50,563 nt of DNA from Chloroflexaceae bacterium (GTDB lineage: Bacteria; Chloroflexota; Chloroflexia; Chloroflexales; Chloroflexaceae): contig JAAUTZ010000015.1 of the NCBI GenBank assembly GCA_012031225.1, positions 1 through 50,563 on the forward strand. The letters run 5' to 3'. The translations under genes were made by a program, and so were the position numbers. Numbering within the stretch: position 1 is the first letter of the stretch; each line of letters opens with the position of its first letter. A model generated the notes under the pieces. That model saw only the letters and a list, made by a program, of their open reading frames with translations. It was not told the origin of the DNA and made no database searches. This document shows positions 8,764 through 13,211 of the stretch, in pieces.

Positions 8764-10578
8764 CTACAACCGGATGCCCCAGAATAACCACAGCCCGCAG
8801 ATCAGCACCGCAAACCAGACGACGACTAAGCCGCCGCCAACGCGCAGGAAATCGGCTCCGGTGTAGCTGCCGGGTGTGACCATCAGCAGATTGACGGGGT
8901 GGGCAATGGGGGTGAGGAATGATGCAGAGCAGGCGATAGCGACGGCGACGGCGACAGGCACCGGATCAATCGCAGCCTGCGCCGCCGCCGTGAGCGCAAG
9001 GGGCCCGACTACGAGAGCCGTGACTTGCCCGCCAATCGCCTGCCCAATCAGCATGGCAAACAGAGCCAAGCCGCCGACGAGGGCAAGTTCGCCATAGGGT
9101 GCAGCCAGCTGCACAATCACGTTGCCGATCCGCTCGGCTAAGCCGGTGCTGAGGAACGCGCTGCTGAGGGGGGTCATACCTGCAACCAAGAAGATCACGC
9201 GCCAGTCAATCACGCGGTACATCTCCTGCATCGAGATGATCCCCGTGATGACGATCAACACCGCCCCCAGCAGCATGGCAATGGATGTGGGCAGCCAGCC
9301 TACCGCAGAGACCCCGATCACGGTGAGCGTGATGAGTGCGGCAAGGATCGCCTTGCGCGGATCGGGGTTGTAGCTACGCGGCATATCCAATACGATAAAG
9401 CCATCTTGATCAGCAAGGGCTTGGACAGCTTTAGGGTCGCCCTGTAGCAGCAGCGCATCGCCTGCTGCAAGCGGCATCTTGCCCACATCGGTGCGGTAGC
9501 TCCGGTTGCCCCGCCAGATCGCAATCACCTGAATGCCAGTACGGGTGCGAAACTGTAGCTCAGTCAGGGTCTGCCCCTCGAAGGGCGCACGCGGCGCAAC
9601 AATCACTTCAGCCGGATAGATTGCACGGGTTGCGACGTGGCGCGACGCTGCCCCCGATGGGAACACCTGCACCCCGTGTGCGGCGAGCGGCATGACCCGT
9701 TCCTCGCGCCCTAGAATGAGCAACGTATCGCCAGCGTGGATCACGTCCTCGTGCGTCGGCGCACTCATCAACTCCTGCCCGCGCTGGAGAGCTAGCACCG
9801 TTACGCCGTGCGTTGCCCCGATCTGGCTGGCATGCAGGGTGGTGCCGATGAGGGCCGATTCATCGGGCACGAATACATCCCACAGCCGCTCATCAAGTTG
9901 GTAGGTGGCGGCGAGGTCAGGTGGTGGATCGAACTGGCGCATGATGCTGGCTGGCGAGGCGCGGTTCGGCAGGAGATGTCGCCCGATCAAGGCGGTGTAG
10001 GCAATGCCCGCCACCGCCACCAGTCCGCCGGTTGGCAGGAAATCAAACAAGCCGAGCGCACGGTAGCCCTGCTGCACGAGCAGATCGCTGAGCAGGATGT
10101 TGGCAGTGGTGAAGATTGTAGCCATGCCACCGAGCAGGGTTCCAAAGGCAATCGGCATGAGCAAACGCGAGGGCAAGACATTGACGCGCCGCGCAATCTG
10201 CATCGTGGCGGGCAACAGCACCGCCCCAGCCGCGATGTTATTCATGATCAGTGAGAGCAATCCGCCCGCACTCATCACGACTGTCAGCAGGCGCACTTCG
10301 GAAGTGCCCGTAAATTGGGCTAGCCATACGGCACTGCGGGCAATCACCCCCGTGCGTTCGAGGGCGTTGGTGAGGACACTCAGCCCCAGAATGATAATCA
10401 CGGCAGAACTGCTAAAGCCCGCAACGGCTTCTTGGGGCGAGACGATGCCGGGCAGGGCGAGGGCAAGCAACACCAGCAAGCCCACCAGATCCGGGGCGGT
10501 GCGCCCGCGCAGAAACAGCATCAATGCCCCACCCACCACTAGCACCAGATAGAGTTCTGCCCCTGACATTCCGCCCAT
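8764..10578 (-). CDS. SLC13-family permease with two TrkA-C domains
   Basis: Inner-membrane transporter of 604 residues. It has hydrophobic helices at the N-terminus ('LYLVLVVGGALMLFL', 'VIIILGLSVLTNALERTG'), a soluble middle of about 170 residues holding two RCK/TrkA-C-like units ('ESALIGTTLHASQIGATHGVTVLAL' and 'EGQTLTELQFRTRTGIQVIAIWR'), and more helices at the C-terminus. This arrangement is usual for SLC13/CitT-like sodium-coupled carriers of dicarboxylates or sulfate; the substrate is unknown. AGGAG stands 8 nt before the ATG at 10578; a second ATG lies three codons on. A TATAAT (complement of 10614-10619) upstream may be its -10. Confidence 0.88.
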   Translation of the reverse strand: MGGMSGAELYLVLVVGGALMLFLRGRTAPDLVGLLVLLALALPGIVSPQEAVAGFSSSAVIIILGLSVLTNALERTGVIARSAVWLAQFTGTSEVRLLTVVMSAGGLLSLIMNNIAAGAVLLPATMQIARRVNVLPSRLLMPIAFGTLLGGMATIFTTANILLSDLLVQQGYRALGLFDFLPTGGLVAVAGIAYTALIGRHLLPNRASPASIMRQFDPPPDLAATYQLDERLWDVFVPDESALIGTTLHASQIGATHGVTVLALQRGQELMSAPTHEDVIHAGDTLLILGREERVMPLAAHGVQVFPSGAASRHVATRAIYPAEVIVAPRAPFEGQTLTELQFRTRTGIQVIAIWRGNRSYRTDVGKMPLAAGDALLLQGDPKAVQALADQDGFIVLDMPRSYNPDPRKAILAALITLTVIGVSAVGWLPTSIAMLLGAVLIVITGIISMQEMYRVIDWRVIFLVAGMTPLSSAFLSTGLAERIGNVIVQLAAPYGELALVGGLALFAMLIGQAIGGQVTALVVGPLALTAAAQAAIDPVPVAVAVAIACSASFLTPIAHPVNLLMVTPGSYTGADFLRVGGGLVVVWFAVLICGLWLFWGIRL

Positions 10579-10663: not shown

Positions 10664-10692
10664 TTGACAGTCCGACCGGGCTGTGCTATAGT
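10664..10692 (+). promoter_or_regulatory. consensus sigma-70-type promoter of the aromatic leader
   Basis: TTGACA (10664-10669), a 17-bp spacer and TATAGT (10687-10692) give a near-ideal vegetative promoter. Transcription would start near 10699, about 270 nt before the chorismate mutase start, leaving room for the leader. Confidence 0.8.
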
Positions 10693-10735
10693 CGCAGGCA
10701 AGAAGTAATTTTACGAGTAGTCTGGTACTTTTCGT

Positions 10736-10825
10736 ATGCAACCTACCTTCAGTGTCTATTTTGCGGGCTTTTACTTTAGCTGGTCGAACTACATACCGAC
10801 TGGTTGCTTCCCGTTGCATTCGTAA
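10736..10825 (+). CDS. aromatic-rich leader peptide, 29 aa
   Basis: ATG to TAA short ORF with nine aromatic residues of 29 (five Phe, three Tyr, one Trp). The core, residues 5-19, is FSVYFAGFYFSWSNY. It lies between a consensus promoter and a terminator hairpin upstream of aromatic-biosynthesis genes, as expected for a leader peptide that senses charged Phe/Tyr/Trp tRNA. Weak points: no convincing ribosome-binding site (GAGTAG is about 15 nt upstream), and the overlapping +strand frame ending at 10779 is also Tyr/Phe/Trp-rich because the stretch is T-rich. Confidence 0.6.
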   Translation: MQPTFSVYFAGFYFSWSNYIPTGCFPLHS

Positions 10826-10851
10826 GTAGACACCTAAGACGAGCATAAATG

Positions 10852-10881
10852 GGCGTGAGGCAACCAAGCCTCACGCCTTTT
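10852..10881 (+). terminator. intrinsic terminator (attenuator) in the leader
   Basis: GGCGTGAGGC and GCCTCACGCC form a perfect 10-bp stem with loop AACCAA, followed by TTTT. It lies 88 bp before the chorismate mutase start and after the leader peptide stop, so it acts inside the transcription unit rather than at the end of a gene. Confidence 0.85.
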
Positions 10882-10968
10882 CAGTGTGTTCGGCGTGGGT
10901 GCGGCGGTTAGGCGGAACAGGACATAGCGGTGCAGATCACACAGCGACAACAGAAAGGGGTTATGCCA

Positions 10969-11373
10969 ATGAGTGTTTGGTGCCGTGGCGTGCGGGGAGC
11001 CACAACAGCGCGTGAGAATAGCCGCGAGGCAATACTGGATGCAACCCGCGACTTGCTCCAGCAGATGATTGCCACGAATGGTCTCCACGCAGATGATGTG
11101 GCGAGTGCCTTGTTCACCACCACCACCGACCTGAATGCTGAGTTTCCAGCGATTGCCGCCCGTCAATTGGGCTGGACGAATGTCGCATTGATGTGCGGGC
11201 ACGAGATGAATGTGCCGGGTAGCCTGCCCATGTGTATCCGCGTGCTGCTGCACTGGAATACCACTCGCACCGCCAGCGAGATTGTCCATATCTATACCAA
11301 TGGCGCAGAGGTATTGCGCCCCGAATTGGCCCAGCCCAGCCGGCCTGTGCCACCATCTAGCGAATCATTATAG
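10969..11373 (+). CDS. aroH: chorismate mutase, AroH type
   Basis: Converts chorismate to prephenate, the branch point to Phe and Tyr. The 134-residue protein matches the monofunctional trimeric AroH class (Bacillus subtilis type): '[23 protein letters not shown]' at the N-terminus, '[16 protein letters not shown]' and '[17 protein letters not shown]' with the conserved arginine. The frame is open from a GTG at 10930, but AGAAAGGGG (10952-10960) is 8 nt before ATG 10969 and only 2 nt before ATG 10963, so 10969 is preferred. DAHP synthase follows, so the first enzyme of the shikimate pathway and chorismate mutase are co-transcribed behind the attenuator. Confidence 0.92.
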
Positions 11374-11534
11374 TGCGCTTCAAGCTGCTGAGGCGCAACC
11401 TGTAGATCAAGGAGAACCTAGAGATGCTCGCGCATACGCTACAGACCCATTCCATACTGGTTGAGTCGCCCCAGCCGCAGAGTGCAGTGCTACCCTACCC
11501 ACAGTATCCCGTATTTCAGGAGGAGGATCGTTCA

Positions 11535-12578
11535 ATGGTTGTTGTGATGCGAACAGAAGCAACGGAAGCCCATATCGAGGGCGTATTGGAACGGCTGCAT
11601 GAACACGCCCTCAAAGGGCATCTGGTACGTGGTGAAGAACGCACGATCATCGGCGTAGTCGGGGCCATGATCCCGCCCACGCTGCGCGAGGAGATGGAAC
11701 ACTTTCCGGGTGTGGCCCACACGATCCGCATTACCCAACCCTACAAGCTCGCCGCACGCGAGTTCCGCCCGCACGATACCGTCGTGGATGTGCGCGGGAT
11801 TCCCGTCGGCGGCGGCGCGTGTGTTGTGATTGCCGGCCCTTGCACCGTCGAGAGTGAAGCCCAGATTGTGCAGACCGCGCACGCCGTGCGCGAGGCCGGC
11901 GCAACGATGCTACGTGGGGGCGCATTCAAGCCGCGCACCTCGCCGTATGCCTTTCGCGGCTTGGGCGAAGAAGGGCTACGCCTGCTAGCACTTGCCCGTA
12001 GCGAAACCGGCTTGCCCGTCGTAACCGAAGTGATGACCCCCACGGATGTTGATCTGGTTGCCCGTTACGCCGATGTGTTGCAGATTGGCGCACGCAATAT
12101 GCAGAACTACCAGCTACTCGAAGAAGTCGGGCGTACAGGCGTACCGGTGCTGCTCAAGCGCGGCATGTCGGCCACGATTGACGAGTGGCTGCTGAGTGCC
12201 GAATACATCATTGCTAAAGGCAACCCGAACGTGATCCTGTGCGAGCGCGGGATCCGCACCTTCGAGACAGCAACGCGCAACACGATGGACATTAACGCGA
12301 TTGCGGTGGTGAAGAAGCGGAGCCATCTGCCGATCATTGCCGATCCAAGTCACGGCACAGGCCAGTGGTATCTCGTGCCATCGGTGGCATTGGCCGCGAT
12401 TGCGGCGGGTGCGGATGGGCTAATCATCGAAGCGCATCCCGATCCAGATCGGGCTGTGAGCGACGGTGGGCAATCGCTGACGCTAGAGAACTTCGCCGCG
12501 CTGATGCCGAAGATCGCAGCTGTTGCCGCCGCCGTCGAGCGCAGCATCGCCGTGCCGCTGGAGTTGGAAGTCGCCTAG
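11535..12578 (+). CDS. aroF: 3-deoxy-7-phosphoheptulonate (DAHP) synthase
   Basis: First step of the shikimate pathway: phosphoenolpyruvate + erythrose-4-phosphate to DAHP. The 347-residue protein has an N-terminal ferredoxin-like/ACT-type regulatory domain of about 70 residues as in Thermotoga maritima DAHPS, then the class I TIM barrel with '[15 protein letters not shown]', '[17 protein letters not shown]', '[20 protein letters not shown]', '[11 protein letters not shown]' and '[10 protein letters not shown]'. Start 11535 is chosen because AGGAGGAGG precedes it and homologues begin at this point. An in-frame ATG at 11424 also has a good AAGGAG nine nt upstream and would add 37 residues (see findings). 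Feedback through the N-terminal domain is known for this type. Confidence 0.93.
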
Positions 12579-12628: not shown

Positions 12629-12637
12629 TTGACAGGT

Positions 12638-12668
12638 TTGACCCTTGCTTGTACCATTGCTCTATTAT
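12638..12668 (+). promoter_or_regulatory. weak promoter candidate for carbonic anhydrase
   Basis: TTGACC (12638-12643) and TATTAT (12663-12668) are separated by 19 bp, longer than ideal. A TTGACA also stands at 12629-12634. The position fits the start at 12699. Confidence 0.35.
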
Positions 12669-12698
12669 CGTGTTAACAATACAAGAAAGGGAAGGTCA

Positions 12699-13211
12699 AT
12701 GCCAGTCTATGATGAGGTGCAAGCTGCGAACGCCGCTTTTGCCGCCACCTTTACGGCGGGTGATCTGCCGATGCCGCCCGCCCGCCGGGTGGCTGTCGTG
12801 ACGTGTATGGATGCCCGCATCCACCCCGAGCGGCTACTCGGACTCAACATTGGCGACGCGCATGTGATCCGCAATGCAGGCGGGCGCGTGAGCGAGGATG
12901 CGATCCGTTCGCTGGTGATCTCGCAGCAGCTACTCGGAACCGGTGAGATCATCGTCATCCACCACACCGATTGCGGCATGCTCACCTTTAGCAATGCCGA
13001 TCTCGCGGCGACGATCAAGCGGAATTTGCAGGTGGATGTCGGCGAGCGCGACTTCCTGCCCTTCAGCGATCTGGAGCAGAGCGTGCGCGACGACGTAGCG
13101 ACCCTACGCCAATCGCCCCTGATTCGGGCCGATGTGCCGATCACCGGTGCAATTTACGATGTGACTAACGGGCGGGTGATCGAGGTGGTGCGTAGCCCCG
13201 CTGCTGCCTAG
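12699..13211 (+). CDS. beta-class carbonic anhydrase
   Basis: Interconverts CO2 and bicarbonate. The 170-residue protein has the zinc-binding set of the beta class: 'VVTCMDARIHPER' (Cys plus the Asp-Arg dyad), then 'VIHHTDCGML' (His and Cys), with 'IRNAGGRVSEDAIRSL' between them. The frame is open from 12645, but AAAGGGAAGG precedes ATG 12699, and homologous N-termini start close to this point. It faces the CCG-domain gene with only 46 bp between them. Confidence 0.92.
   Translation: MPVYDEVQAANAAFAATFTAGDLPMPPARRVAVVTCMDARIHPERLLGLNIGDAHVIRNAGGRVSEDAIRSLVISQQLLGTGEIIVIHHTDCGMLTFSNADLAATIKRNLQVDVGERDFLPFSDLEQSVRDDVATLRQSPLIRADVPITGAIYDVTNGRVIEVVRSPAAA

Follow-up and report, generated by a model that had tools for sequence, protein, structure and literature searches.

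A predicted leader-peptide transcription attenuator rich in phenylalanine and tyrosine codons upstream of aroH and DAHP synthase genes in Chloroflexota

The window, by which we mean the whole 50,563-nucleotide stretch of Chloroflexaceae DNA that was analysed, carries on its plus strand two adjacent genes of aromatic amino acid synthesis. The first encodes an aroH-type chorismate mutase (10963-11373; Pfam CM_1, PF07736, E 2.9e-45), with a start at 10963 or 10969 inferred from the upstream AGAAAGGGG. The second (11424-12578) encodes a DAHP synthase with a ferredoxin-like regulatory (FXD) domain (Pfam DAHP_synth_1, PF00793, E 3e-80; PF18152, E 4.7e-16). DAHP synthase carries out step one of the shikimate pathway. 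Ahead of the pair, the region 10664-10968 contains a promoter, a short leader open reading frame (ORF) and a GC-rich hairpin followed by TTTT, in that order. The Pfam matches bear out the gene pair named in an initial annotation of this DNA, made from the letters alone, and they place the target genes in the pathway of the amino acids that the leader would sense.

We considered whether the hairpin could be the terminator of the minus-strand neighbour, a gene of the CitMHS family (8764-10578), and rejected this because that gene is divergent and starts upstream, so that the hairpin does not lie at its end. Directly 3' of the DAHP synthase gene, in the interval 12629-13211, a promoter-like site (TTGACA-17-TACCAT) stands right before a carbonic anhydrase gene (Pro_CA). 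A second DAHP synthase gene, type I-alpha-like, is present elsewhere in the same genome (G000:C120:55410-56312), and the ORF scan used here found no aromatic leader before it or before trpE (G000:C56).

The promoter comprises a -35 element TTGACA (10664-10669), a 17-nt spacer and an extended -10 element TATAGT (10687-10692), just as the initial annotation had read it. It is of the sigma-70 type, with 11 of 12 consensus matches and TG before the -10, and one such site was found where shuffles of the region lead us to expect 0.2. A TATAGT- or TATATT-like -10 element is also found upstream of 47 of the 51 homologous leaders. The ORF that follows (10736-10825) has 29 codons, reads MQPTFSVYFAGFYFSWSNYIPTGCFPLHS and ends with TAA at 10823-10825. 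The nine Phe, Tyr and Trp codons previously counted in it are indeed there (F5, Y8, F9, F12, Y13, F14, W16, Y19 and F25). When the 1135 short ORFs from the two strands of the window are compared, it ranks top in aromatic density per ten codons, a density reached in 10 of 2000 shuffles of the region; these shuffles, together with the conservation described below, led us to reject a chance ORF. The main stall codons are predicted to be F12, Y13 and F14 and, after S15, W16 (10769-10783), where Tyr and Phe mark the conserved end of the aromatic run in the alignment. No clear Shine-Dalgarno sequence was seen before the leader ATG in the window copy; a match of at least 4 nt precedes 40 of 79 leaders.

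Three helices can be drawn in the leader RNA, and the parts and their mutually exclusive base pairing are plain from the sequence. In the minimum-energy fold, positions 10777-10786 pair with 10797-10806 to form a protector (1:2) helix, absent from the initial annotation, whose 3' arm overlaps the antiterminator strand. The antiterminator strand itself (10801-10815, TGGTTGCTTCCCGTT) lies in the 3' part of the leader ORF and is complementary to 10852-10866 over 15 positions with one mismatch; none of 5000 leader-strand shuffles was as good. The helix had been recognized before, with an extent of 10 bp (10801-10810 with 10857-10866) that proves too short. The intrinsic terminator, drawn as originally placed, has a stem of 10852-10861 with 10868-10877, a loop of 10862-10867 and TTTT at 10878-10881, and is supported by the fold and by covariation in 51 homologues. 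Its 5' arm and loop (10852-10866) double as the partner of the antiterminator strand. The U tract of the window copy is short, with four T only (TTTTC); a count over the 10 nt that start at the stem end also gives four T, against a mean of five.

The leader RNA, with its protector hairpin and terminator, folds better than its shuffles (z -3.3). A partial transcript, 10790-10867, that begins after the stall site and lacks the 3' arm of the terminator adopts the antiterminator fold at -23.7 kcal/mol. The full transcript favours the terminator at -30.9 kcal/mol, even with the 5' part of the leader blocked, and the antiterminator is not its minimum-energy state. Because the terminator is finally the more stable structure, antitermination would have to be kinetic, and attenuation of trp operons is likewise a kinetic choice. 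In the untranslated fold (10751-10835) we also see an outer helix, roughly 10752-10768 with 10816-10834 (GTGTCTATTTT with AAGTAGACAC), that encloses most of the leader; it is complementary by sequence in the copy from the same genus as well, and was not seen as a shared feature elsewhere.

Conservation of the element within the order Chloroflexales is extensive. The aroH gene was found in 75 of 82 genomes, and the element is kept by all of these apart from the two genomes of a single genus and one case at a contig end. A covariance model derived from the order recovers it in 72 of the 82 genomes, with one element per aroH. Nearly every aroH copy of the order has an upstream short ORF with four to nine aromatic residues in ten (for instance NSFYFYFYFTSRHKAWLLRVI, SRFYTYFFYFTSRKPDWSLRIS and SAYYFWFWYFASSPRDWLLRVG). 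The terminator after this ORF has a 5' arm complementary to the ORF's final part, and the next gene downstream of aroH is a DAHP synthase in nearly all relatives with a long enough stretch. The genus without leader and terminator (g27; L092 and L096 in G057 and G058) is the only such Chloroflexales genus with aroH, and is a natural loss of the element that is worth comparing. In one locus (L022, G023) the leader is present and the 5' part of the terminator is missing, with 59 nt to aroH rather than about 95; the hairpin has possibly collapsed in the assembly. For L116 (G081) and L118/L119 (G078), the leader with aroH, or with an aroH fragment, stands at two places in one genome, which are apparently duplicated or at contig ends.

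Codon and structure counts were made on 51 non-redundant Chloroflexales leaders. Orthologues that had lost the aromatic codons were to weigh against the initial annotation, and none of the 51 has lost them: the run is present in every one, and every run contains both Phe and Tyr. Trp occurs in 11 of 51, so that of the mixed Phe/Tyr/Trp signal first described, Phe and Tyr stand and Trp does not hold as a conserved signal. Aromatic codons account for 29% of codons in the leaders, compared with 4.5% in the genes behind them. Of the 376 aromatic codons, 180 encode Phe, which makes Phe the commonest of the three, and the less used Phe codon, TTT, is enriched (66% in leaders vs 28% in genes, p 7e-18). 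Close pairs differ 65 times at aromatic codons, and 46 of these differences leave an aromatic residue in place, 17 of the 46 through a swap of one aromatic residue for another; of the 45 possible single changes, 8 would do so. Given that the pairs overlap, the comparison serves as description and not as a test. The same-genus copy (L003) differs from the window leader by three synonymous changes and S29T in the last codon. From these patterns, the aromatic codons of the leader appear to be under selection.

The RNA structures were compared on the same alignment. For the terminator stem, 94% of cells are paired, and the compensatory changes sought in it are abundant, since double changes number 56 where shuffles give 20; RNAalifold finds the stem unaided, with 7 of 11 pairs backed by double changes. 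The antiterminator is 89% paired, compared with 35-61% for slid versions. Here the search for compensatory changes gave a divided answer: complementarity is kept, whereas the variation is mostly one-sided, of the G-C to G-U type, with few double changes. One-sided variation is expected if a single terminator arm has to serve two pairing partners. Antiterminator strands fit their own terminator (with the loop extension) better than the swapped partners of other species (23.6 vs 21.3; 0 of 5000 permutations), in a control that does not remove relatedness. The protector helix is weaker in relatives (78% paired, 12 double changes), and the aromatic run lies just upstream of it. In 50 of 51 leaders the antiterminator strand lies 12-22 nt before the leader stop, and in the remaining one (L095) it comes just after the stop. 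This placement of the control codons fits, by geometry alone, a stalled ribosome that frees the antiterminator strand and a finishing ribosome that covers it.

We propose that the element is a ribosome-mediated (leader-peptide) transcription attenuator, a prediction from anatomy and comparative evidence that we regard as very probably correct. Every sequence-level feature that defines leader-peptide attenuators is present. In this model, transcription would start near 10699, giving a transcript of about 183 nt from start to terminator, and a ribosome would follow RNA polymerase into the leader ORF. Poor charging of tRNA-Phe or tRNA-Tyr (here also tRNA-Trp) would make the ribosome stall at codons 8-16 and cover the 5' arm of the protector helix. 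Stalling would free 10801-10815, which would pair at once with the newly made 5' arm and loop of the terminator (10852-10866); the antiterminator would then exclude the terminator, and aroH and the DAHP synthase gene would be transcribed. When all the tRNAs are charged, the ribosome would reach the stop at 10823 and cover the antiterminator strand, and the terminator would form. Were the leader left untranslated, the protector hairpin would hold the antiterminator strand and the terminator would again form, so that the default state would be off. We infer that the promoter is used, that the ORF is translated and that stalling and termination take place, and likewise which amino acids matter. 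The chain is weakest at three points, namely the short tract of four T, the absence of a clear ribosome-binding site before the leader and the greater final stability of the terminator.

The layout has known counterparts, of which AroR-aroF of Corynebacterium glutamicum and the Acholeplasma motif uORFC-13-1 come nearest. In the enterobacterial trpL, pheL and pheM leaders, stall codons, protector, antiterminator and terminator come in the same order and the untranslated default is also termination, although these leaders use codons for single amino acids and control other target genes. The AroR-aroF attenuator of Corynebacterium glutamicum has a Phe-Tyr-Phe leader peptide before a DAHP synthase operon (Neshat et al. 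2014, via review PMC11802643), in which ribosome stalling raises transcription in response to Phe, not Tyr, limitation (PMC11802643). It resembles the Chloroflexota element in having a Phe/Tyr leader peptide before an operon that contains a DAHP synthase gene, a likeness of layout only. It differs in belonging to another phylum, while here an aroH-type chorismate mutase comes first and an FXD-type DAHP synthase after it, and aromatic codons extend over a much longer run (5-9 of 10 codons). The uORFC-13-1 motif upstream of aroF in Acholeplasma likewise combines a predicted uORF containing one or more Phe codons, a promoter and an intrinsic terminator before a DAHP synthase gene (PMC8632094). 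That motif comes from comparative analysis only, is restricted to Acholeplasma and unassigned environmental sequences, requires at least one Phe codon and is not associated with aroH.

According to a survey from 2010, leader-peptide systems had until then been demonstrated only in Proteobacteria and Actinobacteria; the survey itself extended them to Firmicutes (PMC2965389). Our search of the literature on attenuation or uORFs in Chloroflexi, which covered mainly open-licence papers and few subscription journals, found nothing relevant. The claim of novelty first attached to this locus therefore holds for the phylum, and has to be narrowed for attenuation of DAHP synthase itself, which was already known (AroR) or proposed (Acholeplasma). 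What is new here is the phylum, the pairing with aroH and the long mixed aromatic run; the mechanism is not. The spread over the phylum would surprise specialists, and the mechanism would not. Ribosome-mediated attenuation would thereby be added to a phylum for which we found no described case. In E. coli the DAHP synthases are controlled by the TyrR and TrpR repressors and not by attenuation (PMC11802643), so that in Chloroflexota one RNA switch would replace the repressor logic at the same step. The element is conserved widely enough to be studied in cultured relatives, and the analysis yields an alignment and a covariance model for a family missing from Rfam, together with about 80 leader peptides.

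Which amino acids the ribosome responds to is less certain than the mechanism. The best explanation of the codon content is that the attenuator senses the charging of tRNA-Phe and tRNA-Tyr, to which Trp is added in some leaders, and we give pooled sensing of the aromatic amino acids about an even chance. A fuller account, in which an old Chloroflexota attenuator family pools two or three aromatic tRNAs as an OR-gate on the shikimate entry enzyme, such that a shortage of Phe or Tyr (or Trp where present) opens the operon, seems to us slightly less than evenly balanced. We had also considered that a single DAHP synthase might force pooled sensing; this was rejected, given that the genome of the window has two and most relatives have two or three. 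The same attenuator could instead answer to one amino acid only, probably Phe, with the other aromatic codons tolerated, a reading that is somewhat doubtful and still deserves weight. The Phe-only response of AroR to its Phe-Tyr-Phe peptide, the predominance of Phe codons and the enrichment of TTT speak for it, whereas the presence of Tyr in all 51 runs, the interchange of F and Y among the 17 aromatic-to-aromatic changes and the mostly Tyr run of one genus (L103-type, TYYGYYFT) do not. Whether a mixed Phe/Tyr run reads either shortage is a testable question.

Mechanisms other than tRNA-dependent attenuation fare much worse. Many leaders end in a conserved-looking WLLRV or WSLRTV, as might be expected of a nascent peptide that, like TnaC, responds to a free aromatic amino acid or arrests inside the exit tunnel. 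However, relative to the ORF the antiterminator strand occupies frame 2 in 41 leaders, frame 0 in 7 and frame 1 in 3 (the window has frame 1), and in all three reading frames the 3' coding strand is complementary to the terminator 5' arm; therefore it is the RNA pairing that is conserved and not the C-terminus of the peptide. In leaders of the other frames (TGCFPLHS, SGCFALYQ, ELVASR, LRPVSSP) the C-terminus is gone and the nucleotide motif is kept, and the order, length and composition of the aromatic run differ from leader to leader. The likeliest reading of the WLLRV or WSLRTV ending is that it follows from the RNA constraint as a side effect, and, given that the frame of the 3' motif changes between genera, we rejected a TnaC-type arrest peptide, to which we assign a very low probability. 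A terminator before an amino acid gene is also the layout of a T-box, and a riboswitch, T-box or protein-binding leader with an incidental ORF would share it. Rfam covariance models run on the whole window gave no family above the gathering score, which led us to reject a known riboswitch or T-box; moreover, the conserved structure consists of just the terminator, the antiterminator and a small hairpin, and the aromatic codons appear selected, which makes any such leader most improbable. We think just as little of a constitutive or weak terminator beside a chance ORF, without regulation: the short U tract of the window copy would suit it, and yet the element, with its antiterminator strand and aromatic codons, is conserved in four families of the order and in several more beyond it.

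The reach of the element beyond the order was explored with a covariance model trained on Chloroflexales and run on 400 genomes drawn over the phylum. Eight further copies were found in other Chloroflexota families, all eight with an aromatic leader ORF and a terminator; the gene behind them is aroH in seven cases and another DAHP synthase in one (L161). At L161 (1608-1766, G318) the first gene is apparently a type I-alpha DAHP synthase, judging by its N-terminus, with an FXD-type one behind it, and no aroH was found in the fetched stretch. Among 60 further aroH upstream regions from other families, leader and terminator co-occur (9 with both, 1 with the leader only, 5 with the terminator only and 45 with neither; Fisher p 1e-6). 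Outside the order the antiterminator could be shown in some copies, and in a simple test of contiguous pairing its match frequently does not exceed chance. The element is thus patchy but wide in the phylum. At L217 and similar aroH loci outside the order that have no leader, the upstream frame reads like the C-terminus of TrpA, and aroH there seems to sit behind trp genes.

A further locus comes from Candidatus Neomarinimicrobiota (L065, JAIPJQ010000154.1, 201-410), where a leader ORF that contains six successive Tyr codons (ATYYYYYYSYC) lies upstream of aroH and a DAHP synthase gene. A strand within this ORF (ACTATCCCATGCTTT) is complementary to an arm of the terminator, which is followed by seven T, and the locus is likely a Tyr-type attenuator in another phylum.
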